NCBI GenBank assembly: GCA_017462565.1 | Contig: JAFTQW010000007.1 | Coordinates: forward strand, 1-33,565 | Direction of reading: 5' to 3' | Length of the DNA: 33,565 bases | DNA from: Ruminococcus sp. | GTDB lineage: Bacteria > Bacillota > Clostridia > Oscillospirales > Ruminococcaceae | Part shown: piece after piece, positions 651-32,900 of the stretch | How positions within the stretch are numbered: position 1 is the stretch's first letter | How the letters are laid out: the number at the start of each line of letters is the position of its first letter | The notes under the pieces: generated by a model | Database searches by the model: none | What the model was told of the DNA's origin: nothing | The model's input: the letters and a program-made list of their open reading frames with translations, nothing else | Translations under genes and position numbers: made by a program

Positions 651-3600
651 ATGACAAGTTTATCGGATTATCCGAGCAGTACTTTTGTCAGAAATTTTGA
701 TATAGAAGCAATTTCGATTCCCATCGTTTATAATAAATATGGCGATCATGATCCAAATGGTATGATTTATGTGCTGAAAAAGGATTCTGAACGGATTCGG
801 CAAAAAGCAAAAGAGAATTTTGCAATGGATCCTCCGCAGCCTTACAAAGAGGTACAGCCTCTTGTTATAAGAGCAAATGAAGGCGATGAGATTCGGATAA
901 ACTTCTATAACAAATTAGACAGAAATACGTCCATGCACGTGCAGGGACTGCGATATGATGTTTTGACTTCGGACGGTGCAAATGTGGGAAATAATCCGGA
1001 TACCACTGCCCAAAATTTTATACAATATGTCTGGTATGCGGAAAAAGAAGGCGTTTATTTATTTTCAGATATGGGAGACCCACGAGGAAGCGAGGACGGC
1101 ACAAATGTACACGGTCTTTTCGGTGCCGTTATTGTTGAAAAACCGCAATCCACATGGTTCGATCCGGTAACAGGAGAAGAAATTGAAAGCGGACTGTTTG
1201 CTGATATCTATAATCCGGCAAGTCCTGCTTTTCGTGAATATGCGGTTTTCTTTCATGACGAGCTGGAAATAAAAAATAAGGACGGTCAGCAGCCGGTCGA
1301 CCCCCATACGGGACTTCCAAACGGAACAACAGGAATCAGCTATCGTTCCGAACCTATGCGTAACAGACTTCCTCTTGAGGAAATACACCATGTTGTTACA
1401 GGTGAGGATATTTCCATGAGTTCATGGCCATACGGAGATCCTGCACCGCCTATTCTCAGGGCATATGCCGGAGATCCGTCTAAGATAAGACTGATTCATG
1501 GCGGTGTAAAGGAAACTCATGTCTTTCATCTTCACAATCATCAGTGGAGGCTGGATCCTGACGATCCGAAATCTACTATTATTGATTCCATTTCGATAAG
1601 TCCTCAGGAATGCTATACGCTGGATATTCTGTATGGCGCAGGAAGTCTGACAAGAACGATCGGAGATGTGATTTTTCACTGTCATCTTTATCCGCATTTT
1701 CATGAGGGTATGTGGACGCTATGGAGGATTTTCGACAGATTGGAGGACGGCACAGGAGAATATCCGGACGGCACGCCTATTGAGCGGCTTTTGCCGTTAA
1801 AAGACAGACCATGTCCTCCGGAAAAGGATTTGCTTCATCCCGGATATCCCAATTTCATTAATGGAGAATTCGGAGAGCGTCCGCTTCAGCCTCCCTTGGG
1901 AATTCTGGACGAAAACAACAACAATAAAATCATTCCTACACCTATAGAAGCAGCAAATTTTGTACCGGGTTTTGCACCGGGAGCATTGTATTCACAGACG
2001 TGTCAGTGCAATTGTCCAAAGGATATCAAGGTATTTGAACTGGCGGTTGTGCAGGCGAATATTATATACAATCGCTATGGCTGGCATGATCCGCAAGGCA
2101 GATTTTTTGTTTTGAAAGAGGATATAGAACGTCATGGAACACTTGAAAATTATCTGGAAAAGGTCAACAGCGGAAAAATTAAACCTGAACCCCTTGTGAT
2201 ACGTGCAAATGCAGGAGACTGTATTGAAATAAGACTGACAAATTTTCTGCCTGAATTTATTGAAGAAAGTCCGTTTCAGTTGAAAACACTGACCGATATT
2301 GCCGCTTTTCATATTCATCTTGTAAAGTTTGATACAATTGTATCAGACGGTGCGGCAAACGGTTGGAACAATATTGCCGGTGCTGGAAGGTATGAAACTT
2401 TGATAGAGCGGTTTTATGCAAACGAAGAATTGAATACAGTCTTTTTCCATGACCATTTGTTTGCCAATTCTCATCAGCAGCACGGTATGTTTGGAGCATT
2501 GATTATTGAACCGGCAGGTTCTGTTTTTCTGAATCCAAAAAACGGAAAACCATTAAAAAGCGGAGCCAATGCAGTTATCAAAAAAGCAAACGGAGAATCT
2601 TATCGTGAGTTTGCAATGTTTGTTCATGATTTTGCACTGTTATTTGATAAACATGGAAAGCCTCTTAATCCTCCGGAGCATCCCGGTTCTGATGATGATC
2701 CGGGCGTAATGGGAATCAGTTACCGCTGCGAGCCGATGAGAGAACGGCTGAAAAAGAAAAACGATCCGTCTCATATATTCAGTTCACGAAGATACGGAGA
2801 TCCGGCAACACCGATTCTGGAAACTTATCCGGGCGACCCAATGGTAATTCGTTTGCTTGACGGCGCTCATGAGGAGCAGCATGCGTTTAATATAAACGGA
2901 ATGTCCTGGCGTAAGGAGATTACCGATGCAGTTTCTCCTTTGGTTGCAGAGCAGACCATCGGCATATCAGAAGCGTTTAATATTCGTGTTGACGAGTATT
3001 ACGGTGAGGGAGACTATTTGTATTATTTCGGCGGTATTGATGATATATGGCTTGGTTTGTGGGGAATCATCAGAGCGCATAGCCGGCGTCAAAAACATCT
3101 TCTTCCGCTTTGCAATCAGAATAAACCTCTGCCGTTCCCTGTTTGTCCGCCGAAAGGAGCAAGGATACGAAAGTTTGAAATTGCTGCAATTCAAACAGAT
3201 ATTGCATACAACCGTTACGGCGATCATGACCCCGAGGGTATGCTTTTTGTTCCTCTGGAGTATGCAGAAGATGTTAAGTGCGGAAGAAAAAAGCCGATAC
3301 CTTTGATTTTACGTGCCAATGCAGGGGATTGGATTGAAATTACACTGCACAATATGTTTGACAAACCGGTGATGTATCATGATTATCCCTCGGTTCCGCT
3401 GGATATGAAGCATTGCCCGTCTGATAGAGTTTCACTAAGTCCGCAGTTCCTGAAACGCTGTCAGATATGTGCAGCAGGCGTTAATGTGGGTTACAATAAG
3501 CAGGAACAGACGGCTGCGCCAGGGGAATGCATCAAATATTTATGGTATGCCGATAAGGAATACGGAACTTGTATGCTTAATTCATTCGGAGATTTGCGCA

Positions 3601-4334
3601 ATCACAGATATCACGGTTTGTTTGGAGCGATTATCATTGAACCTCCTGCGGCGCAGTATTACAGCAATTTTTTCAATCGAAAAGAAAGCTTCAGCGAACA
3701 GGCGGTTATTACAGCTCCGGGAGTTAAATCATTCCGGGAATTTGTATTGTTTGCTCATAATGGCATACGATTGCTGGATAAAGATGGAAATCTTATTAAA
3801 ACTTCAGAGCAGGGCGAGGATACCGGACATGGAGGCGTTGATCATGAGGATACAGGCGAGAAGGGGTTCAACTATCGCTCGGAACGCTTTTTTAATAGGT
3901 TAAGACGAGTTCCGATTGTTAATAGGATTTTTAGTTCAAGGACGCATGGAGATCCGGCAACACCGCTTTTGAAAGCGTATACCGGAGAACGTGTAATAAT
4001 CCGGTATCTTATGCCGGGGGATAAACCAAGAAATATCAGTTTTGTACTGCATGGGCATAATTGGCTTGCACAGCCTGATGATCCGTTTTCAAGAAGAATT
4101 TCCGTGCAGGGCGCAGTAAGCGCAGGAGGAGTTTATAATATTGAACTGGAAAACGGAGCGTCAGAATATCCCGGCGATTATCTCTATCGTTCAGGCTCAC
4201 TGAAATGGGACGTAGAATCGGGAATGTGGGGGATATTCAGAGTTATGAAAAAAGGTATCGGATATTGCTGTACTTGCGTATGCCGTACATTCGGTAACTG
4301 GTGGGAAAGACAATGGTTTGAGAAATACGAGTAA
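651..4334 (+). CDS. Large multicopper oxidase, MnxG-like, with three two-cupredoxin units
   Basis: The protein has 1227 residues and no signal peptide. It is three copies of a roughly 400-residue unit, each starting with an I-x-YN-x-YG-x-HDP motif, so about six cupredoxin domains as in ceruloplasmin and in the roughly 1200-residue MnxG manganese oxidases. All four classical copper motifs are visible but split between units. Unit 1 carries H290-x2-H293-x-H295 and H343-C344-H345-x3-H349-x4-M354; unit 2 carries H554-x-H556 and H600-x-H602. Equivalent positions elsewhere are degraded (for example MHVQG near residue 95 and YLYRSG in unit 3), so one T1 site and one trinuclear centre are expected at the unit 1/unit 2 interface. 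The family uses O2 to oxidise metals or phenolic substrates; Mn(II) is only an inference. The start is set by AAGGGAG 10 bases upstream. A hairpin terminator follows, then a DUF2935 gene. Confidence 0.85.
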   Translation: MTSLSDYPSSTFVRNFDIEAISIPIVYNKYGDHDPNGMIYVLKKDSERIRQKAKENFAMDPPQPYKEVQPLVIRANEGDEIRINFYNKLDRNTSMHVQGLRYDVLTSDGANVGNNPDTTAQNFIQYVWYAEKEGVYLFSDMGDPRGSEDGTNVHGLFGAVIVEKPQSTWFDPVTGEEIESGLFADIYNPASPAFREYAVFFHDELEIKNKDGQQPVDPHTGLPNGTTGISYRSEPMRNRLPLEEIHHVVTGEDISMSSWPYGDPAPPILRAYAGDPSKIRLIHGGVKETHVFHLHNHQWRLDPDDPKSTIIDSISISPQECYTLDILYGAGSLTRTIGDVIFHCHLYPHFHEGMWTLWRIFDRLEDGTGEYPDGTPIERLLPLKDRPCPPEKDLLHPGYPNFINGEFGERPLQPPLGILDENNNNKIIPTPIEAANFVPGFAPGALYSQTCQCNCPKDIKVFELAVVQANIIYNRYGWHDPQGRFFVLKEDIERHGTLENYLEKVNSGKIKPEPLVIRANAGDCIEIRLTNFLPEFIEESPFQLKTLTDIAAFHIHLVKFDTIVSDGAANGWNNIAGAGRYETLIERFYANEELNTVFFHDHLFANSHQQHGMFGALIIEPAGSVFLNPKNGKPLKSGANAVIKKANGESYREFAMFVHDFALLFDKHGKPLNPPEHPGSDDDPGVMGISYRCEPMRERLKKKNDPSHIFSSRRYGDPATPILETYPGDPMVIRLLDGAHEEQHAFNINGMSWRKEITDAVSPLVAEQTIGISEAFNIRVDEYYGEGDYLYYFGGIDDIWLGLWGIIRAHSRRQKHLLPLCNQNKPLPFPVCPPKGARIRKFEIAAIQTDIAYNRYGDHDPEGMLFVPLEYAEDVKCGRKKPIPLILRANAGDWIEITLHNMFDKPVMYHDYPSVPLDMKHCPSDRVSLSPQFLKRCQICAAGVNVGYNKQEQTAAPGECIKYLWYADKEYGTCMLNSFGDLRNHRYHGLFGAIIIEPPAAQYYSNFFNRKESFSEQAVITAPGVKSFREFVLFAHNGIRLLDKDGNLIKTSEQGEDTGHGGVDHEDTGEKGFNYRSERFFNRLRRVPIVNRIFSSRTHGDPATPLLKAYTGERVIIRYLMPGDKPRNISFVLHGHNWLAQPDDPFSRRISVQGAVSAGGVYNIELENGASEYPGDYLYRSGSLKWDVESGMWGIFRVMKKGIGYCCTCVCRTFGNWWERQWFEKYE

Positions 4335-22183: not shown

Positions 22184-22738
22184 ATGGACAGCGGTGCGGA
22201 AAGTTACCGCCGTTTTCTTGATGGCGACGACAGCGGAATGGAAGAGATAATACGTGATTATAAAGACGGTCTTATACTGTATCTTAACGGTCTTACGGGA
22301 AATATTTATATTGCAGAAGAACTTATGGAAGATACGTTTTTTAAGCTTGTTACAAAAAAACCTCGTTTTTCAGGGAAAAGCCTGTTTAAAACGTGGCTTT
22401 ACTCAATAGGAAGAAATGCGGCTATCGATGGGATGCGCCGCCGTTCAAAGCTGGTTCATACACCCATTGAAGAGTGCTACGATATTTCGGATGAAGAAAG
22501 CATAGAACGTGAATACCTTAAAGAAGAGCAGAAAATACAGCTTCATAAGGCTTTAGGCAAGCTTAATCCAGATTACCGTCAGGTTTTGTATCTGGCTTTT
22601 TTCGAGGATTTTAAAAATGAAGAAACGGCAAAAATAATGCGTAAATCCAAAAGACAGATAGAAAATCTTTTATACAGGGCTAAACAATCTTTAAAATCCG
22701 TGCTTGAAAAGGAGGGATTTGAATTTGAAATCTTATAA
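22184..22738 (+). CDS. ECF-type RNA polymerase sigma factor
   Basis: The 184-residue protein has the two-domain ECF layout. Region 2 spans about 20-87 (MEEIIRDYKDGLILYL, AEELMEDTFFKL, FKTWLYSIGRNAAIDGMRRR, the last being the -10 recognition helix). Region 4 spans about 120-178 (LHKALGKLNPDYRQVLYLAFFEDFKNEETAKIM, then the helix-turn-helix KSKRQIENLLYRAKQSLK). It directs polymerase to a small regulon, often controlling its own operon. AAGGAGG is 6 bases before the ATG. Its end overlaps the next gene by 14 bases, so the two are translationally coupled, the usual sigma/anti-sigma arrangement. I could not identify a convincing ECF-type promoter upstream. Confidence 0.9.
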   Translation: MDSGAESYRRFLDGDDSGMEEIIRDYKDGLILYLNGLTGNIYIAEELMEDTFFKLVTKKPRFSGKSLFKTWLYSIGRNAAIDGMRRRSKLVHTPIEECYDISDEESIEREYLKEEQKIQLHKALGKLNPDYRQVLYLAFFEDFKNEETAKIMRKSKRQIENLLYRAKQSLKSVLEKEGFEFEIL

Positions 22739-23606
22739 AGAAATTGCCGAGGATGTTTTTAAGCGCAGAGACGAGTATTTTGCAGCAAAAAAAACTAAGC
22801 GTTCCGTTTGGCTGAAGAATATTTCAATTGCTTTAAGCTGCTGCGTTTTAGTGATTGCAGGAATAGGAATTCTTAAAAGCAGCCGTTTGCGTTCAAATCC
22901 TTCTGATCAGGACAGCAGCAGAATAGTTGTCGACGGAATTATTTCTCCGGAAATAGAAGATAATACGGATAAAAAAAATCCGGTTTCAACAACAAAAGAC
23001 TCCGATATTGTTACAACATTGGCTGATGTAACTGCAACAACGGGAAAAAACGATTCGTCTCATATGTCAACAACAGTTGTATCTACGGGAAATCAGACTT
23101 CTGAAGGAAATAATGCCTCTTCATCTGCTTATACGTCGTTCACAGAAACAACAGCTGCATCTGAAACGTCTGTAACGACGACTGATGCACATACTACTTC
23201 TGTTTCGGAAACTACAAGCTTTTCTGAAACGACAAGTATTGTTACGCTGTCATCGACTACCGAATCCGTTATACCGGCCTCCACCACAACTACGACAACA
23301 ACAACTACTACTGCCACGACTACAACCATTACTACATCAACCATTTATCCGATAACTACGACAATAGGCATAAGCAGGAGTATGGATATGTTTTCCGGTA
23401 AATCTTCGGATACGGATTATGGAAGAATAACGTCAGAAATACCCTTGAAAAAGATTTTTTCAGAAATCTGCCTGAAATTTAATGAAAAACGGTCGGTTTT
23501 GTCTTTCAAGGACGCAGAACCTCCTGATAAAAAGATAAATATGCCGTTTTATTATGGGCATATACGAGTCCGTTCAAGAAAAAAACGAGTAATCTACCTT
23601 TTATAA
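22725..23606 (+). CDS. Membrane protein with Thr-rich outer region, probable anti-sigma/sensor partner
   Basis: The most likely start is the TTG at 22725, 9 bases after AGGAGG (22710-22715), giving 293 residues. The TTG at 22704 precedes that site and the one at 22719 is too close. The N terminus MKSYKEIAEDVFKRRDEY is a short cytoplasmic segment typical of small anti-sigma partners in this lineage. One membrane helix follows (about 33-51), then an outer region of low complexity rich in Thr and Ser (about 85-215, including runs of ten Thr). The last 75 residues, rich in Lys and Arg, match no domain I know; a late frameshift cannot be excluded. The overlap with the ECF sigma gene implies a joint circuit: the Thr-rich part would span the wall and pass a signal inward. 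The function is inferred from context. Confidence 0.7.
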   Translation: MKSYKEIAEDVFKRRDEYFAAKKTKRSVWLKNISIALSCCVLVIAGIGILKSSRLRSNPSDQDSSRIVVDGIISPEIEDNTDKKNPVSTTKDSDIVTTLADVTATTGKNDSSHMSTTVVSTGNQTSEGNNASSSAYTSFTETTAASETSVTTTDAHTTSVSETTSFSETTSIVTLSSTTESVIPASTTTTTTTTTTATTTTITTSTIYPITTTIGISRSMDMFSGKSSDTDYGRITSEIPLKKIFSEICLKFNEKRSVLSFKDAEPPDKKINMPFYYGHIRVRSRKKRVIYLL

Positions 23607-23635
23607 GCTGCTGCATTTTTACGGCAGCTTTTTCT
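23605..23635 (+). terminator. Terminator of the ECF sigma / membrane sensor unit
   Basis: AAGCTGCTG pairs with CGGCAGCTT around CATTTTTA, followed by TTTTCTTT. It separates the sigma unit from the next operon. Confidence 0.82.
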
Positions 23636-23716
23636 TTGCACATTGAAAAAATAAATATTTACGCCGATTTATATCATTACAATTTTGTTATAATTGCCTT
23701 TTTATACAGAGCTTTC

Positions 23717-23745
23717 TTGACATTGTGCAAATGCTGTGATACAAT
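23717..23745 (+). promoter_or_regulatory. Promoter of the envelope-polymer operon
   Basis: TTGACA (23717-23722), a 17-base spacer and TACAAT (23740-23745) form a near-consensus promoter. The leader before the first gene is about 40 bases. Because it overlaps the first codons of the longest ORF, it also rules out the start at 23736. Confidence 0.85.
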
Positions 23746-23792
23746 GTAAGTTGCGTGATTATATGCAATATTACGATAAGGGGAAAATGAAA

Positions 23793-25598
23793 ATGAGCAA
23801 CAAAACTGGAAATCAGATTCCGGAGAAAGATAAAACAAAAGCGTCTTCAAAATTGAATAAGAAAAAAGAACTTCTTATCATTCTGCTGAGCTTTGCTGCA
23901 AGCTTTACGTTCTTCTTTTTCTCGCCTGTAGATATTTTTCTCGGAAATCAGAAGGAATTCGTCGTAAGCTTTGGTCATGTTGCAGTTCCGCTTCTTATAA
24001 CGTCGCTGATAAGCGCCGCTCTGCTTATTCTTATTCAGAATATTTTTCTTATAATTCACGAAAAGGCTTACATTGTAATATCAAGACTTATTTTCGGAAT
24101 AACTCTTGCAGCCTATATACAATCGCTTTTCCTGAACAGCAAAATGGCTGCTATAACAGGCGATGACGCTCGCTACAGCGACAATAAGTTTACTGTTATA
24201 CTGAATCTTGCGATTTATATTGTATTAATAATTCTTCCGCTTATTCTCAGCATTCTTGCAGGAAAGTTTAAGTCAAATAAGCTCTTAAACTTTGGAAAGG
24301 GTATGATAATTCCTTATTTAAGCATTCTTATTTTCGGAATGCAGCTTGCCGGAACAGGTTCTTCAATGCTTACGGCTGATTTTGATAAATATAAAAAGAC
24401 ATATACGTCTTATCTTTCCTACGAACCGTCAATGTCGCTTTCAAAGGACGAAAATATAGTCGTGTTTCTTGTAGACCGCCTCGACGGTCTCTGGATGGAT
24501 ACGATAATTGACGAATATCCTGATCTGAACGATAGGTTTGAGGGATTCACATTCTATCAGAATAATATTTCCCATAATACAAATACATTCCCGTCGGTCG
24601 CTCAGATGCTCACCAATTATCGCTATCAGGGTACGGAATGGGCAGATTACGTCAGCAAGGCGTGGGAAAGTGATACAGTCGCTAAAAACCTTAAAGAAAA
24701 CGGTTATAAAGTAAATCTTCTTATAGATAATCTTACAACATACAGCTGTGTTGCTCAGTTAGACGGTCAGTGCGACAATATTCTATCGTGCAGTTCTGAC
24801 GATGTAAAGTTCAATTATGTGGGCAAGGGCGGTATAGTTCCGACTATGGCGCAGATCTCGCTTTCAAAGCTTTCGCCGTATATCTGCAAGAGCCTTGTAA
24901 CGGTAGGTCTGGGGGCAAATCTTTCGGCGGATTTTGTTACATACAGCAAGCCTATGGACGATATGATGCCTATGGCTGTCGGAATAGAATCCGATCTGAA
25001 ATATAACGACTATATTAAAAGTCACGAATTCAATTCCGGAAGCGACGCAAAAACCTTTTCATACATACACCTCAACGGAGCGCACGATGATTCCGATGAG
25101 CTGACCGCTCTTTACGACAGTTCGATCCCGACCGACAGATGGTCTACCGCAAGAGGAGATTTTGAGATTCTGTTCTATTATTTCGATCAGATGAAAAAAC
25201 TCGGAATCTATGATAATTCCACGATTATTGTACTCGGAGATCACGGAAGAGCTCCCTTTGAGATAGAAAGAGAGGGAAAAGACGGTATCGAGAGCGCAAT
25301 AACTACCGCTCTTCTTGTAAAACCGAAGAACGCCAATGCAGAACCTCTTAAATTCGACAGAGAATCAGAGCTTTCCAACGATTTCTTCCCGGCAAGTATT
25401 CTTGAGTATGCCGGAATAGATCACGAAAAATTCGGCTGTTCATTTAATGATGTAATAAACGGCGATCTTCATCCCGAACGTTACTTCCAGACATATGATT
25501 TCGGCGGATACGGAAGAGTTATTTATAAAACTCTTTATAAAGTAACTGGAGACGCAAGAAATTTCGATAACTGGGAAGCACAGGAGGAGCATGAATAA
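23793..25598 (+). CDS. LtaS/sulfatase-fold membrane phosphotransferase-like protein, paralogue 1
   Basis: The start at 23793 is set by AAGGGGAA and the promoter position; the protein has 601 residues. A basic N-terminal tail leads into five membrane segments (about 28-46, 62-88, 95-115, 134-155, 172-190), the first followed by the conserved FSPVDIFLGNQKEF. The outer domain has the alkaline-phosphatase/sulfatase fold: metal-site Asp228 in VFLVDRLDG, candidate nucleophile Thr265 in NTNTFPS, His431 in HLNGAHD and Asp483-His484 in LGDHGR. This is the layout of LtaS and related enzymes that move glycerol-phosphate or phosphoethanolamine groups from phospholipids outside the membrane. It has 1 base of stop/start overlap with a full-length paralogue. 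Transfer of a polyol phosphate to a surface polymer is inferred; sulfatase or hydrolase activity is also possible. Confidence 0.82.
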   Translation: MSNKTGNQIPEKDKTKASSKLNKKKELLIILLSFAASFTFFFFSPVDIFLGNQKEFVVSFGHVAVPLLITSLISAALLILIQNIFLIIHEKAYIVISRLIFGITLAAYIQSLFLNSKMAAITGDDARYSDNKFTVILNLAIYIVLIILPLILSILAGKFKSNKLLNFGKGMIIPYLSILIFGMQLAGTGSSMLTADFDKYKKTYTSYLSYEPSMSLSKDENIVVFLVDRLDGLWMDTIIDEYPDLNDRFEGFTFYQNNISHNTNTFPSVAQMLTNYRYQGTEWADYVSKAWESDTVAKNLKENGYKVNLLIDNLTTYSCVAQLDGQCDNILSCSSDDVKFNYVGKGGIVPTMAQISLSKLSPYICKSLVTVGLGANLSADFVTYSKPMDDMMPMAVGIESDLKYNDYIKSHEFNSGSDAKTFSYIHLNGAHDDSDELTALYDSSIPTDRWSTARGDFEILFYYFDQMKKLGIYDNSTIIVLGDHGRAPFEIEREGKDGIESAITTALLVKPKNANAEPLKFDRESELSNDFFPASILEYAGIDHEKFGCSFNDVINGDLHPERYFQTYDFGGYGRVIYKTLYKVTGDARNFDNWEAQEEHE

Positions 25599-27388
25599 TG
25601 AAGCCTGTTTGTTTTAGAACAAAAATAAATAGAAAGCTTCTTGATAAAAAGAAAATATTTGCCGCAGCTATTCTTAGCATATCAATTTCTTTTACAGTTT
25701 TCTTCTTTTCGCCAATTGAAGTGTTTCTTGGAAATCAAAAAGAATTTCTTATAAATTTTGAGCAGGCAGCAATTCCTTTGCTGATTGTTTCATTGGTTTG
25801 TTCTGCCGCTGTTCTGACGATTCTAATTTTACTTTATAAAATATGCGAAAAAGCTTTTGAAATAGCTTTGCGGCTTGTTTTGGGAATTCTTCTGGCGTTT
25901 TATATGCAAAGTCTCTTCTTTAACGGAAAAATGTCATCCCAAAACGAAATCATCTCTTATCCTGATGACCTGAAAACAAATATAATTAATTTTATTGTTT
26001 ATTATTTTATATTGTTTGTTCCGCTTATCATTTATGCGGCAGCACATAAAAAATCTGATATAAAGTGGCTGAACAAAGGAAATAAGCTGATTGTTCCATA
26101 TGCGGCGTCATTGATTTTTCTCATGCAGCTCTGCGGAACATCGGTTACCGTTTTAAATACCGATCTGAATAAGAATGAAAATACGTATTCTTCGTATTTT
26201 TCGTATGAACCTGCAATGTCTCTTTCTACGGAGGAAAATATTGTTGTGTTTCTTTTTGATCGGCTTGACAGTCTGTGGATGGATGAGGTTATCGAACGAT
26301 ATCCCGAAGTAAAGGACGAGCTTGAGGGCTTCACTTTTTATCAGAATAATGTTTCTCATAATACGAATACTTTTCCTTCGGTTTCGCAAATGCTTACGGG
26401 AGTGTATTACAAAGGGGAAAACTGGGTAGATTATCTTGATACTGCATGGAAAAGCGGCACTATTCCTCATGAACTTAAGAAAAATGGCTATAATGTAAAT
26501 CTTTTTATAGATAAAACTACCGAGTTTAATAATTATAAACAGCTTGAAGGTATTTGTGATAACATAGAATATTGTCAGAGAAGCGATTATAGCTTCAATT
26601 ATATCGGGAAAAACGGAATAATTCCTACGATGACCAGATTTTCCTTTTCAAGAACGCTTCCGTACATATTTAAGGAAAGTATGACAAAGGATATAGCACC
26701 GGGATTTTCAAATGAATTTATATCATATTTACCGGAAATCAATGAAAAACTTGCTCCGGTTGCTATTGAATCAAAATCTGATATTAAATTTAATAATTAT
26801 ATAAAGACGTATGGCTTGAAATCCGATTCAGGAAACAAGACGTTCACGTTTATTCACCTTAACGGCGCGCATGGGCAAAATGAAAGCGTATCCGCACTTT
26901 ATAATGACCCTGAATCGCAAGGCTTTGACAGAATTTCTACGGCAAGGGGCGTATATGAAATCATATTTGAATATTTGCGGCAGATGAAAAAGCTTGGCGT
27001 TTATGATAATTCTACTATTATAATTGTCGGCGATCATGGACGTGTTGCATCCGGATTGGATAACGGCATGAATGAGCTTAATTTCGCAATAACGACGGGA
27101 CTTCTCATAAAACCGGCTCAGTCGGGCTTGGAACCGCTGAAAATAGACAGTAAAAGCGAGCTTTCCAATGACTTTTTTATGGCAAGTATTTTTGAATATG
27201 CCGGAATCGGTCATTCTGCTTACGGATACTCTTATAATGATATAATAAATGGAAATCTTCATCCGGATCGTTATCAACAGACGTTTCAATATGTTGAGGC
27301 AGGTGAAATAATTTATAAAACCCTTTATAAAATAACCGGAGACGCAAGAGATTTCGATAACTGGGAAGCACAGGCAGAGCATGAATAA
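25598..27388 (+). CDS. LtaS/sulfatase-fold membrane phosphotransferase-like protein, paralogue 2
   Basis: The 596-residue protein aligns end to end with the preceding one. It has the same membrane layout with FFSPIEVFLGNQKEF, the same DRLDSLWMD, NTNTFPSVSQML, HLNGAHG and GDHGRV motifs, and an almost identical C terminus (ARDFDNWEAQ). All candidate catalytic residues are kept, so both copies should be active. The His-motif context differs (HGQNES against HDDSDE), which could change the acceptor. The ATG overlaps the upstream stop as TAATG, and AGGAGG at 25582-25587 lies inside the upstream gene, so translation is coupled. Codon use is visibly more A/T-rich than in paralogue 1, so the copies are not a recent duplication. 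A primase/polymerase split, as with LtaP and LtaS in Listeria, is a possible model. Confidence 0.82.
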   Translation: MKPVCFRTKINRKLLDKKKIFAAAILSISISFTVFFFSPIEVFLGNQKEFLINFEQAAIPLLIVSLVCSAAVLTILILLYKICEKAFEIALRLVLGILLAFYMQSLFFNGKMSSQNEIISYPDDLKTNIINFIVYYFILFVPLIIYAAAHKKSDIKWLNKGNKLIVPYAASLIFLMQLCGTSVTVLNTDLNKNENTYSSYFSYEPAMSLSTEENIVVFLFDRLDSLWMDEVIERYPEVKDELEGFTFYQNNVSHNTNTFPSVSQMLTGVYYKGENWVDYLDTAWKSGTIPHELKKNGYNVNLFIDKTTEFNNYKQLEGICDNIEYCQRSDYSFNYIGKNGIIPTMTRFSFSRTLPYIFKESMTKDIAPGFSNEFISYLPEINEKLAPVAIESKSDIKFNNYIKTYGLKSDSGNKTFTFIHLNGAHGQNESVSALYNDPESQGFDRISTARGVYEIIFEYLRQMKKLGVYDNSTIIIVGDHGRVASGLDNGMNELNFAITTGLLIKPAQSGLEPLKIDSKSELSNDFFMASIFEYAGIGHSAYGYSYNDIINGNLHPDRYQQTFQYVEAGEIIYKTLYKITGDARDFDNWEAQAEHE

Positions 27389-27443
27389 TGCTGCGCATTA
27401 TTCATTATATATAATAGGAAAATATTGAAAGGAAATGATAAAT

Positions 27444-27683
27444 ATGTTTAATTTAACAGCCTCTATGTACATTGATCCTGCAACCACAAGCTTTATTATT
27501 CAGATAGGAGCCGGTATTATTATTGCTGCCGGAACCTTTATCGGAATTTTCTGGAGCAAGATAAAACGTATTTTCAAAAAGAAAAAGGATGAGACTCCTG
27601 CAATAGACGCCTCTGAGGTTAATAGTCTTCACAGCAATGAAAAGGATGTTATAACCGCTGATGATCTTCTTGATGAAGATTAA
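27444..27683 (+). CDS. Small single-span membrane protein of the envelope-polymer operon
   Basis: The start at 27444 lies 10 bases after GAAAGGA; an ATG at 27435 is too close to that site. The 79-residue protein has a short outer segment containing MYIDPATTSFIIQ, one glycine-rich membrane helix (about 16-38), a strongly basic stop-transfer stretch (KIKRIFKKKK) and an acidic tail. Small proteins with the DPAT-T-S-x-I-I-Q motif are, to my knowledge, found next to polysaccharide and teichoic-acid genes in Clostridia, without an assigned function. Sitting between the LtaS-like enzymes and the YidC-glycerophosphotransferase fusion, it may be a structural partner of either. Confidence 0.7.
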   Translation: MFNLTASMYIDPATTSFIIQIGAGIIIAAGTFIGIFWSKIKRIFKKKKDETPAIDASEVNSLHSNEKDVITADDLLDED

Positions 27684-27701
27684 TTCTTCGGGAGTGTTTG
27701 T

Positions 27702-29726
27702 ATGGCAGTTTTAGGTACGATTCTTGGATGGGTCATGAGCCTTATCTATAATATTATTAATAATTACGGACTTAGTATTATCGTTTTCACCCTTTTCACG
27801 AAGTTTCTTCTTTTTCCGCTGAGTCTTTTAACGCAAAAAAACTCCATAAATATGGTAAGGCTCATGCCGGAGGAGAATGCTCTTAAAATCAAATATATCG
27901 ACGATAAGGATAAGCTTGCCGACGAAAGGCTTGCGCTTTATAAAAGATATAAGTATCATCCTATTCTTGGAACGATACCGCTTCTTATACAGATCCCGCT
28001 TGTTCTCGGACTTGTTTACGTTATCTACCGTCCGCTCTCGTACGTTTTGCAGATAGACGCAGACGTTATCGCTCAGATGCGTGACTGGCTTATCGGAATA
28101 GTCGGAAAGGGAAGCGACGCTGCTGCTGATAACTCCTATCAGTGCGAGATCATAAGACGTATCAAAGACGGCATTGCTCCTGATGGGGATTTCGGCAGAG
28201 CAATTTCCGATATCAAGGCTTTGGATATGAATTTCTTCGGTCTTGATCTGAGCAAAAAGCCATCGTTCAAGGGGGACTATATTCTACTTATCATACCTTT
28301 TCTCTCAGGACTCAGCGCATGGCTGCTCTGTTATGTTCAGAACAAGATAAACATTCTTCAGATGGCTCAGGGAAATGCAAATAAAATACTGACAACGATA
28401 TTTATGGTTGCATTTTCTACGTATTTTGCGCTTCTCGTTCCTGCCGGAGTAGGTCTTTACTGGATTTTCGGAAACCTTTTCGGTATTCCGTCTATGTATC
28501 TTACAAACCTTTGTATGCCTCCGAAAAAGTATATCGATTACGATTACCTCAAGAAAATGCGTGAACAGCGCATTGAAAAAGAGAAACTCCATAAGCAGTA
28601 TGGAGTCAGGGAAAAGGCTGATTATAAGAAATTCTTCTCTGAAAAGGACATGAAGCTTGTGTTTTACTCCGAGCAGAGCGGATTTTTTAAGTATTATTCC
28701 GGAATGATAGACTATATCTGTGAAAATTCAGATATCGTTATTCATTATGTTACAAGCGACCCGGACGACGCTGTGTTCAAGGATACAAGAGAGCAGATAC
28801 ATCCCTATTATATTTCTTCGGACAAATATCTGATTCCGCTTTTTATGAAGCTTGATTGCAGAATGTGCGTTATGACAACTCCTGATCTGGAAAAATATCA
28901 TATCAAGCGTTCAAGAGTTAATAAGAATATCGAGTACGTTTACGCTTTCCACGGCATGGGAAGTACGGCTCTTACGCTCAGAAAGGGAGCGCTGGATTGG
29001 TATGATACCGTTTTTGCCGTCGGAATCGACTGCGTTAACGAGATACGAGACGCTGAGGAGCTTTATAATACGCCGAAGAAGAGACTTGTTGAAACGGGTT
29101 ATCCTCTTATCGACGAGATGATCGAAAAATATGAAAGCTCCGAGCATGAGGAGAATAAAATTCCAAGAATCCTTATCGCTCCTTCCTGGCAGCCGGATAA
29201 TATTATTGATTCCTGTATCGACGAGATTCTTGAAAAGCTTTCAGAAACGGATTACGAGATAATCGTTCGTCCACATCCTCAGCAGGTTCGGCATCAGCCG
29301 GAGAAATTTGAGATTATGAAAGAAAAATTCAGTAAATTCAATAATATTGAAATTCAAACGGATTTTTCTTCTAATAATCCGGTCATGGAATCCGATATTC
29401 TTATTACCGACTGGTCGGATATTTCGTGGGAATTTGCTTTTGTGACGAAGCGGCCTGTACTGTTTATCAATACTCCAATGAAGGTTATGAATCAGGAATG
29501 GGATAAAATTAAAACAAAGCCTATAAATATTACTCTCAGGGACGTTATCGGCGTTTCTATGGATACTGATAAGCTTGGTTCTATTAATGAAACGGTTGCC
29601 AAAATGCTTGAGGAAAAAGAGCAGTACCGTGATTCTATTGCAAAAACTTTCAGCGAACACGTCTTTAATGTCGGAAAAAGCAGAAAGCTTTGCGGAAAAT
29701 ATATTGTTAAATCTCTTGAAAAATAA
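27702..29726 (+). CDS. YidC/Oxa1-like membrane domain fused to a CDP-glycerol glycerophosphotransferase
   Basis: The 674-residue protein starts at 27702 after GGGAG. Residues 1-275 have the YidC/Oxa1 layout: a helix with GLSIIVFTLFTKFLLFPL, a charged hairpin (KIKYIDDKDKLADERLALYKRY), the HPILGTIPLLIQIPLVLGL helix and three later helices ending in PAGVGLYWIFGNLFG. The usual groove Arg of YidC is Lys34 here. Residues about 300-674 are a TagB/TagF-like transferase: His417 in AFHGMGS, APSWQPDN, His525 in VRPHPQ, and TDWSDISWEF (569-578) with the nucleotide-site acids. This domain transfers glycerol-phosphate from CDP-glycerol to a membrane-linked acceptor on the cytoplasmic face. There is no signal peptide before the first helix. 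The fusion suggests that the YidC part anchors or channels the acceptor instead of inserting proteins. It closes the four-gene operon and is followed by a strong terminator. Confidence 0.88.
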   Translation: MAVLGTILGWVMSLIYNIINNYGLSIIVFTLFTKFLLFPLSLLTQKNSINMVRLMPEENALKIKYIDDKDKLADERLALYKRYKYHPILGTIPLLIQIPLVLGLVYVIYRPLSYVLQIDADVIAQMRDWLIGIVGKGSDAAADNSYQCEIIRRIKDGIAPDGDFGRAISDIKALDMNFFGLDLSKKPSFKGDYILLIIPFLSGLSAWLLCYVQNKINILQMAQGNANKILTTIFMVAFSTYFALLVPAGVGLYWIFGNLFGIPSMYLTNLCMPPKKYIDYDYLKKMREQRIEKEKLHKQYGVREKADYKKFFSEKDMKLVFYSEQSGFFKYYSGMIDYICENSDIVIHYVTSDPDDAVFKDTREQIHPYYISSDKYLIPLFMKLDCRMCVMTTPDLEKYHIKRSRVNKNIEYVYAFHGMGSTALTLRKGALDWYDTVFAVGIDCVNEIRDAEELYNTPKKRLVETGYPLIDEMIEKYESSEHEENKIPRILIAPSWQPDNIIDSCIDEILEKLSETDYEIIVRPHPQQVRHQPEKFEIMKEKFSKFNNIEIQTDFSSNNPVMESDILITDWSDISWEFAFVTKRPVLFINTPMKVMNQEWDKIKTKPINITLRDVIGVSMDTDKLGSINETVAKMLEEKEQYRDSIAKTFSEHVFNVGKSRKLCGKYIVKSLEK

Positions 29727-29731
29727 AATTT

Positions 29732-29766
29732 ACTGCTGTATTATTTATAATACAGCAGTTTTTGTT
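29732..29766 (+). terminator. Terminator of the envelope-polymer operon
   Basis: ACTGCTGTATTAT and ATAATACAGCAGT are perfectly complementary (29732-29759) and are followed by TTTTTG. Confidence 0.9.
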
Positions 29767-29861
29767 TGATTTGTACAGTGCTGATTTTGCTGGTTTGGCA
29801 ATGCTGTGCAAATTTAACAAATTTTTTGCAGAAAATTCTAATTAATGTACATGAATAATAG

Positions 29862-29890
29862 TTGCAAATTAAATTTGTGTGTGATATAAT
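29862..29890 (+). promoter_or_regulatory. Promoter for the large adhesin-like gene
   Basis: TTGCAA (29862-29867) and TATAAT (29885-29890) are 17 bases apart, about 97 bases before the start codon. Confidence 0.72.
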
Positions 29891-29986
29891 AATTAATGCA
29901 AAAGTGTCTTATACTGCCTTTTCGCACATGAAAACCGCAGTTTAAGAGAAATTTTGCTATAATAATAATGAAAGGATGGAAAACCT

Positions 29987-32900
29987 ATGAAAAAAACATG
30001 GGGGAAGCGGCTGCTAAGCGGTGTTACCTCAGCGGTTCTGGCGGTTTCTTATATGCTGCCGTCAAGTATTCCGTTTGGCTTTAACGGCGTAAATGCTGCA
30101 AATGAAGTTTTGCCGTTGACTGGTGATGAATCAAAGAAAACCGATGATGTTACGCTGCTTGTGGGATCATCACCTCAAAATCCGAATGGCGAGCCATATG
30201 CTAAGTTCTCAAGTGTTGATGAAGCAATAAGACAGTATGACAACGATTATGCACTTGGTATTGCATCGCAGTTCTGTGTGTTTCTAAATGAAGATTTCTC
30301 ACCTACGAGGTCGGATGCAGAAGGAAGAGCAGTGATTGGTGGCAATATTTATACCAATCTTCAGGATCAGGATGTTTATAATATAGGAAAAGGTGACTAT
30401 ATTACCAACAAGAGTCTTGATGAAGTCCTTGGAAATAGTGGATATGCTCATGTCATCTGGGGTGCAAATAGTTCGGAGTTGAGTTTCCCAAGCTTGATAT
30501 ACGGTGATTTTAAGCCCAGAACAGCAGTACAGACTCAGGAAGGAGCAGATTATATTTCTGCAAATCTTTCAAGCGAAAAAAGTAATTTTTATCAAGCAGA
30601 ATTACTTGATATTAATGCTGAAATGGAAAAGATTAAAACAAGGTCTCAGCAGTTATCAAACAAAGAAAATCAGTTTGATGTAGAGTTTTTTGCCGCAAAT
30701 CATGCTCATACCAAGGATTTGGGGGCAACAATTGCTACGGTAAAATATAATGGCACTGATACAACGGCAGAGACTGTTTATTTCAATCTTGACGAACTTA
30801 CTGATGAGGAGTATAAGCAGTTTAAGAGTGCATCAATAATTCGTTATGAAGATATTCCTGAGCTTGAAACTCCGAGAACGGTTATTGATACATCCGGAAA
30901 TCCGCAGATATGGAAATATTCTTATATTGTAATCAATGACAGCAGAACAGGTGATGTGCTGATTGGAAGTCAGAAAGGCTGGCTGCAGCAGTACACATTC
31001 ATAAAAGGTCAGGGTGCAAGCGAAGCTATCAACATTTCCAGCGGTGGCGGCGTATGGGTTAAACAGGACGAAAACGGACAGGAAACTTATGCAGTTGATA
31101 AAGAAGGTAAAGCGAATAATGATATAGGCGTTACGTCACTTCTTTACAATGTTCCAAATGCAAGCAGAGTAGTTATAGTAAGCTCTGCACAGGGAACGAT
31201 TTTAGCTCCAAATGCTGAAATAGTTGATGCAAAAACGTTAAAAAACGAAGGAAAGTTAGACGAGGTTGGTTTGCCTTCTGTTAATGATGATAATCCACAT
31301 ATTTCAGGTGCGATTATAGCAAATAAATTCAGAGGAAATACCGAAATCGGTTACAGACCGTTCACAGGTCCTATCTCAATGCTCGGTATGGATTCTGCTT
31401 ATTCAGTTGATCTTTACAAGTATATCAAGGGAACAACCGATCTTCTCGACGGAGCAACTGTTGGTCTTTTCCCGGTAGCAGACGACGGAACAGTCTCTGA
31501 AACCCCTTCAAGCGAGTTTGAAATTACCGACGGTTATATCAATCAGGCGATTGAACCCGGCAGATACGTTCTTAAAGAAACTAAAGCTCCTGAAGGATAT
31601 ACAATTGATACAACTCAGGAATACTATATCGATATTAAAGATGGAGCTAAGGTTGAAAAAAGCGATATCAAAACAGGCGGTACTATAACAGATACAAAGC
31701 CTGTTATTTATGAAATAGACAAGGACATCACACAGGATGTTGTCACCGGCGAAGCAAGCCCTTATGTTCCCGCTGAAAAACAGCAGTATCAGTATACATA
31801 TACTTTAAATTATTCTGATTTTGGCAAATATTTAAATAAGCTTGCATGGAACGCTCAGGCTCCTACAGGATTAAAAATTGATCAGGTTGTTTTAAATTAT
31901 GCAGATACTAAGCCGGATGTTTATACTATCGGCGAAAATGGTTTTGAACTGAATGATGAAAACCAGACTCAGTATACTCCTGCTGAAGAGCAGAAAAAAC
32001 AGTATGTATATACTATTACATTTGATTCTCCTAAGAGTTTCTCACAGATGGCATGGAATACAGCTGCTCCTGCAATTGACGTAGATAAGCTTGTTTTCTA
32101 CCATGAGGACGGTTCTGCTGAAACTGTTGATACTGTAAACTGGAGTACCGGCAGCAATGACTGGAATCAGTTTAATATTAATGTAAACAATAAAGAGAAC
32201 ATTACTAAGATTGAAATGGTAATGTCCGGAAATGTTGAGGCTGAACAGGACAAACTGAAGCTTATAGTTCAGGATTCCAGCTATAGCAATATTTTTAGCG
32301 GTTCATTTACAGCAAATGATTGCACATTGGAATATCCTCCGATCACAAAATATTATAAGCTTGCAGACGAGGATAATCTTCCTGAGGGAAAAATTTCAGC
32401 AGAAGTCACAGTAGACGGAATAACCAGCAAAGTTGAAGCTGTTTTAATTGATCAAAAGTCACCTAAATATTTAGGTATTGATGCAGACTATAATATTGTT
32501 GGTGTTAAGTGGAATACTGTTACTGATAATTGGCATGAATTTGAACTTGATTTAACCGAAGAAGAAAAACAGAATGTCGTTTCTGTTGAAATTGCTTTAT
32601 CTGGCAGAGTTGAAGAAAATGCAAGTAATCTTAAAATTTGTGCACAGGATGAAAAGTATATTAATCAAACAGAAACAATTGATATTAATGACGAAGCATC
32701 TGTTGATAAGATCGAAATTCTTATAAAAAAATATTATAAGAAGTGGGTTGAAGGCGAGTCACCAAGCGGTTCTACAACAGAGGGCGACGTTACAACAACC
32801 AAAACTTATACAACCGTAACAGTAAACGGTGAAGAAATTGTCGTTGATGCAATTAAGACTGAATCGCCGGAATACCTTAATACTTTTGAATACACTGATG

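Follow-up and report, generated by a model that had tools for sequence, protein, structure and literature searches.

A YidC-TagF fusion, a small YIDP protein and LtaS-like enzymes form a recurrent gene module in Ruminococcus with a possible role in phosphonate decoration of the cell surface

What does a bacterium make with a protein that joins a YidC/Oxa1-like membrane domain to a TagF-like transferase, encoded in one unit with two LtaS-like enzymes? The question arises from contig JAFTQW010000007.1 of the Ruminococcus sp. assembly GCA_017462565.1 (33,565 nucleotides, forward strand; hereafter, the window), which is contig C18 of a 2.63-Mb Ruminococcus-like genome (G000, the own genome in what follows). 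A sequence-only reading had described four genes with a near-consensus promoter ahead of them and a strong terminator behind, and had proposed that the unit combines the cytidine diphosphate (CDP)-glycerol and phosphatidylglycerol chemistries of teichoic acid synthesis. Our analysis confirms the observation and supports part of the interpretation; surface decoration with a phosphonate, or with a related group activated by cytidine monophosphate (CMP) or CDP, replaces the teichoic acid reading as the best-supported, still unproven function.

The unit and its fusion protein

The four genes lie on the + strand and span 23787-29726. Genes 1 and 2 share one base, and gaps of 46 and 18 bases follow. 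The features are as follows.

23717..23745, + strand: sigma-70-type promoter, TTGACA-17-TACAAT, with an extended -10 (TG); 11 of 12 consensus positions
23787..25598, + strand: LtaS-like/AlkP-superfamily membrane enzyme A (open reading frame [ORF] listed from GTG 23736); PF00884, 4.5e-9
25598..27388, + strand: LtaS-like membrane enzyme B; PF00884, 1.2e-11
27444..27683, + strand: small single-span protein, 79 amino acids (aa; ORF listed from 27435); YIDPATTS motif before the span, acidic ITADDLL tail
27702..29726, + strand: YidC/Oxa1-like domain joined to a TagF-like (PF04464) transferase domain; Pfam, structure and alignment
27765..28508, + strand: YidC-like domain of the fusion; PF02096 match and Foldseek match to YidC 3wo7
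28644..29723, + strand: TagF-like GT-B domain of the fusion (residues 315-674); fold matches
29732..29759, + strand: intrinsic terminator, 12-pair stem and T-run

The architecture read from the letters held up in each of its parts, namely the enclosing promoter and terminator, two enzymes of the LtaS/sulfatase fold (PF00884 in both, with a matching predicted fold for enzyme A), a single-span protein of 79 residues when started at ATG 27444, and the fusion itself. The latter matches PF02096 (2.2e-34; 119.3 bits, cut-off 35) and PF04464 (Glyphos_transf; 1.1e-12). In the predicted structure, the C-terminal domain combines its Pfam match with a TagF-like GT-B fold, TagF being the top fold match, and the YidC domain matches YidC 3wo7 (Foldseek E 1.2e-6, TMt 0.68). 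The VIA-align rows are confined to residues 315-674 of the fusion, and support for its YidC fold therefore comes from Foldseek and sequence.

Conservation extends over both halves of the protein. Alignments A1, A2 and A3 hold 45, 36 and 30 of 56, 52 and 49 references, respectively, and all 45 aligned fusions keep H417, R523-P-H-P and D570-W-S in the C-terminal domain as well as K34 and the polar Q213, N217 and Y253 in the YidC groove. Median identity to the window fusion among 44 homologues is 0.67 in the YidC part and 0.69 in the transferase part; the nearest homologue among named genomes (96% identity) comes from a Ruminococcus flavefaciens metagenome-assembled genome. At the groove position equivalent to K34, stand-alone YidC carries Lys in 14 of 16 genomes, the own genome included, and Arg in two; the groove Lys is therefore not special to the fusion, and the idea that Lys instead of Arg marks a lost insertase function was rejected. 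Compared with YidC/SpoIIIJ insertases, the fusion shares a PF02096 score over cut-off, the 3wo7 fold match and the positive groove residue, but it is a paralogue beside a stand-alone YidC and carries a catalytic-type C-terminal domain, leaving an insertase role as a candidate function.

A recurrent module

The window was compared with 59 related loci (60 in total). In 55 of them, a small-protein gene lies no more than 700 bp upstream of the fusion, the misses being L052, L059 (only 409 bp of upstream sequence), L066, L072 and L073; in the last two, it sits between two LtaS-like genes about 4.4 kb from the fusion. In 31/60 loci, the 800 bp upstream of the fusion contain the end of an LtaS-like gene; adding three genes placed farther upstream (up to 7 kb) and one placed downstream gives 35/60, and three of the 25 loci without one have less than 1 kb of upstream sequence. 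The module is thus recurrent. Rare adjacency, which would have told against the sequence-only reading, does not apply to small gene and fusion, but LtaS-like genes are not obligatory and the order with two of them is one of several arrangements.

Beyond these, 16 loci belonging to other families within the order have a small protein nearby in 12 cases and an LtaS-like gene in 12 (own profiles, E ≤ 1e-4); three order matches (G222, G260 and G362) begin at query residues 172-187, so that the check covers them from there on. In a sample of the phylum, the small protein was matched in 5 of 398 genomes, the own genome included. One genome of another order (G866) encodes the small protein and an LtaS-like enzyme in a single 756-residue frame, and the adjoining gene is a YidC-TagF fusion (PF02096, 112.4 bits; PF04464, 57.3 bits). 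Such a gene fusion beside YidC-TagF makes a strong case for joint function of small protein, LtaS-like enzyme and fusion.

Phosphonate genes often accompany the fusion

The own genome holds on contig C28 one cluster encoding a CTP_transf-phosphoenolpyruvate (PEP) mutase (TIGR02320; 419 bits, cut-off 319.6), phosphonopyruvate decarboxylase (Ppd; 476 bits, cut-off 312.5), 2-aminoethylphosphonate (AEP) aminotransferase (460 bits, cut-off 360.8) and a nucleotidyltransferase (NTP-transferase) that is a candidate AEP cytidylyltransferase (PntC). Within the genus, PEP mutase scores over its cut-off in 13/14 fusion genomes versus 3/22 without the fusion (Fisher 3.0e-6); G005, a genus genome without the fusion, has a sub-cut-off match. 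The association also appears in a 394-genome sample of the order, where 8 of 17 fusion genomes (E ≤ 1e-60) and 16 of 377 others encode PEP mutase (Fisher 9.5e-7, or 7.4e-6 leaving out the own genome). In all, 42/60 fusion genomes carry it over cut-off (the own genome, 12/13 and 29/46).

Physical linkage points the same way. At seven loci, the fusion is lined up with the genes for PEP mutase and phosphonopyruvate decarboxylase: small gene and fusion stand immediately 3' of the phosphonate operon in L047, L049, L074, L080 and L087, and the fusion stands 5' of it in L059 and L088. Both enzymes of L087 exceed their curated cut-offs (420 and 463 bits). The fusion of L142 has a decarboxylase-like gene next to it, with a PEP mutase match about 2.3 kb away on the same strand. 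Elsewhere the neighbours are of other types: a fused NTP-transferase/choline-kinase gene 0.2 kb downstream of the fusion in L052; an NTP-transferase/aminotransferase/methyltransferase gene adjoining the fusion match in L057, with homologues of 568-630 residues in L063, L067 and L069; and NTP-transferase and AEP-transporter-like genes near the fusion in L128, L129 and L136. Mutual exclusion between LtaS-like linkage and activation-gene linkage was not shown (median p 0.625), and a FastTree phylogeny of 71 fusions requires 12 or more changes in each of the two traits.

The L057 gene (8027-10573) encodes a single protein in which an NTP-transferase domain is combined with a CobD/HisC-like aminotransferase and a methyltransferase domain; it might by itself produce an activated methylated amino alcohol. 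In the fusion genome G009, a gene for an iron alcohol dehydrogenase stands between PEP mutase and decarboxylase, which we take to suggest hydroxyethylphosphonate rather than AEP as the product. Among the genomes with PEP mutase and no fusion, G002 has a LicD transferase and a polysaccharide flippase beside its PEP mutase cluster on the same strand, as if these stood in for the fusion in this one of three such genomes; no LicD was found among the PEP mutase neighbours examined in the other two, G010 and G012 (four and three proteins). Near the fusion of L153, a UDP (uridine diphosphate)-galactopyranose mutase gene (422 bits, cut-off 304) and glycosyltransferase-looking genes would fit a cell-wall polysaccharide as acceptor.

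The CDP-glycerol chemistry expected from the sequence-only reading finds no support in the own genome, which has no TagD (TIGR01518) at E ≤ 1e-10, holds its sole PF04464 domain in the fusion and carries AEP genes on C28 instead; the pairing of TagD with a separate TagB/TagF that defines classical wall teichoic acid synthesis was thus not found in it. TagD likewise exceeded its curated cut-off in 0/14 genus fusion genomes. A CDP-glycerol donor was also sought through co-occurrence of TagD with the fusion and rejected, as TagD passes the cut-off only in G012 and G041, both without the fusion. In agreement with the earlier reading, no TagGH-type ATP-binding cassette exporter turned up in a Pfam scan of 18 window proteins, a subset of the window ORFs and of the genome.

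A working model and its rivals

We rate at about an even chance the reading that the unit is a surface-decoration machine, in which the fusion serves as a membrane-held transferase of a CMP-phosphonate, here CMP-AEP, together with the small protein and the LtaS-like enzymes. The TagF-like domain would take a CMP-activated phosphonate in the cytosol, most likely CMP-AEP made by the C28 cluster, and would move the phosphonate (or another CMP- or CDP-activated phospho group) to a lipid in the membrane or to a lipid-linked glycan. Membrane retention of the enzyme would fall to the YidC-like domain, which would probably also present or pass the substrate, or aid the insertion of partners; the small YIDP protein is a near-constant partner. 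Where present, LtaS-like enzymes may transfer or modify the phospho or phosphono group on a cell-wall polymer at the outer face. Donor identity, acceptor, order of steps and the part played by the YidC domain are what we infer, and the topology of the fusion and of the LtaS-like enzymes is assumed to follow that of YidC and LtaS. A more specific version, rather unlikely in our judgment, is that the YidC groove and the YIDP protein pass outward a lipid-linked phosphonate loaded from CMP-AEP inside, for the LtaS-like enzymes to deliver to the wall.

Several points weigh against this phosphonate model. PEP mutase over cut-off is missing in 18/60 fusion genomes, including the 3.6-Mb isolate YRD2003 (one of them, G089, has a partial sub-cut-off match), so donors may differ; an NTP-transferase/choline-kinase query matched eight of the 18 at E ≤ 1e-5, several in the NTP-transferase half only, and had no match at this threshold in the other 10. 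The cytidylyltransferase call for the C28 NTP-transferase comes from similarity and position only, the AEP-transporter scores fall below curated cut-offs in the two loci examined (L128 and L136), and the unit and the phosphonate genes are not neighbours in the window's clade, being on separate contigs in the own genome. Phylogeny is not taken into account by the Fisher tests, and many of the genomes are incomplete. Neighbour-gene counts were taken without a random-locus control, as for the 20 of 73 loci that carry, by our own profiles, an activation or phosphonate gene no farther than 9 kb from the fusion, 18 of them on the fusion strand; this count comprises 73 of 76 loci (L057, L091 and L137 had no fusion gene by the ORF caller), and one of the 20, L076, is a gene fragment. 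Searches of the own genome covered families other than LicD.

Sub-cut-off TagD-like domains in the fusion genomes G004, G008, G022 and, outside the genus, G036 also tell against a purely phosphonate-based model, making CDP-polyol donors possible there; the corresponding ORFs of G008 (441 aa), G022 (451 aa) and G004 (427 aa, cut by the locus end) seem to carry a second, oxidoreductase-looking part. These genes favor the original proposal of a glycerol-phosphate polymer primed inside by the fusion from CDP-glycerol and extended outside by the LtaS-like enzymes from phosphatidylglycerol, as do the TagF-like fold of the C-terminal domain and the intact active-site residues of the LtaS-like folds. 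The TagD results in the own genome and its genus speak against it, and the activation genes linked to the fusion are of phosphonate, choline or unresolved NTP-transferase type; we consider such a polymer unlikely. Compatible with either donor is the view that the YidC domain acts as a dedicated insertase, serving the small protein, the LtaS-like enzymes or both, and is tethered to the transferase so that the complex can assemble, a possibility to which we give appreciable weight while leaning away from it. The invariant groove residues suit an insertase, of which a positively charged groove residue is a mark (excerpted text of PMC8920935), and so does the closeness of small gene and fusion; against this stand the stand-alone YidC that the own genome already encodes and the signs of Sec export of the small protein described below. 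The fusion as such would also place the transferase at the membrane, and the YidC part might be an anchor and nothing more. Conservation equal to that of the catalytic part, with the groove residues intact, is more than an anchor would need and makes this explanation quite improbable.

Returning to phosphonate transfer, most bacterial phosphonate biosynthetic capacity serves cell-surface tailoring, and the later Pnt steps are enigmatic, according to the abstract of Rice et al. 2019 (PMC6697681). The own genome resembles the Pnt pathways with PntC treated there in its clustering of CTP_transf-PEP mutase, Ppd, AEP aminotransferase and NTP-transferase; it differs in that LicD-like phosphotransferases or glycosyltransferases are named near such genes in the main text of that paper, where neither YidC nor "glycerophospho" occurs. 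In PMC12413058, the excerpted text holds nothing on the genus's own phosphonates. A literature search, its matches judged mostly by title, returned no paper on a YidC-glycerophosphotransferase fusion and none linking phosphonate or aminoethylphosphonate with CDP-glycerol glycerophosphotransferase. From TagF/TarL CDP-polyol polymerases (PF04464), the unit is set apart by the YidC-like fusion partner, by the TagD result in the own genome and by the link of the fusion to phosphonate/choline-type activation genes in some relatives. For Firmicutes of the rumen and gut, the module is a concrete candidate for the phosphonate transfer step whose donor can be tested, and it shows a YidC-like domain as an integral part of an envelope-polymer enzyme. 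If the lipid-passing version were true, the YidC/Oxa1 fold would handle a substrate other than a protein, and the module would represent a surface phosphonate transferase system of a new kind.

LtaS-like enzymes and the small YIDP protein

Enzymes A and B share 51% identity. The predicted model of enzyme A (predicted local distance difference test score, 85.9) matches PbgA/YejM, LtaS and sulfatases, the last with scores as high as LtaS, and its active-site-type residues D247, D250, T284, H445, H450, D502 and H503 are invariant in 36/36 aligned proteins; Asp247 presumably occupies the position of a Glu in LtaS. The LtaS-like enzymes thus have the AlkP-superfamily fold with active-site-type residues and, like LtaS, PbgA (YejM) and EptA-type enzymes, a helical membrane part. 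Unlike these, A and B match no NCBIfam family at E ≤ 0.1, LtaS models included, score equally against sulfatases and have the small YIDP protein as partner. The own genome encodes a third protein with PF00884 (647 residues; G000:C6:23374-24162, L150), whose similarity to the LtaS model is weak (29 bits, cut-off 970).

Ahead of YIDP, 11 of the 30 aligned small proteins carry a leader that ends in an AxA-like site (12 by pattern, L074 being probably spurious). A signal peptidase I gene (PF10502) lies between small gene and fusion in L128-L130, which together with the AxA-like leaders points to Sec export of the small protein there, and another lies directly downstream of the small-LtaS gene in L153; these neighbours would fit cleavage before YIDP. 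Loci L154, L155 and L156 encode small proteins with YIDPGTGS or YLDPGTGS, followed by a protein of 453-460 residues and with no fusion gene nearby. The 453-460-residue protein of L155, the one of the three examined, has no Pfam or NCBIfam match; an LtaS-like gene lies 5' of the small gene in that locus.

Transcription signals and flanking genes

The listed ORFs of the unit are 23736-25598, 25598-27388, 27435-27683 and 27702-29726. The first gene probably starts at ATG 23787 or 23793, because GTG 23736 falls within the promoter, and the small gene probably at ATG 27444, which is preferred over 27435 for its better spacing from AAAGGA. The promoter is the top-scoring of 29 sites matching at least 9/12 positions in 22500-31000, a number not enriched over expectation (25.9; standard deviation [sd], 5.3). 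A site of 11/12 arises in 0.9% of 2000 first-order shuffles of the 180-base gap, and the + strand of the whole window has three such sites versus 0.58 in 40 shuffles. Terminator-like sites number 10, versus 5.5 (sd 2.5) in shuffles.

Upstream of the promoter lie an extracytoplasmic function (ECF) sigma factor gene and a gene with a weak, sub-cut-off Sigma_reg_N match, a pair that closes in a terminator-like site at 23605-23630. ECF sigma factors of the family represented at window 22184-23606 occur in 8/60 fusion loci (also L033, L039, L041, L043, L045, L046 and L085), sometimes not upstream and sometimes on the other strand, and may tie the module to envelope stress. At 651-4334, the window also encodes a 1227-residue multicopper-oxidase-like protein (PF07732, PF07731), whose host is probably an anaerobic rumen bacterium.

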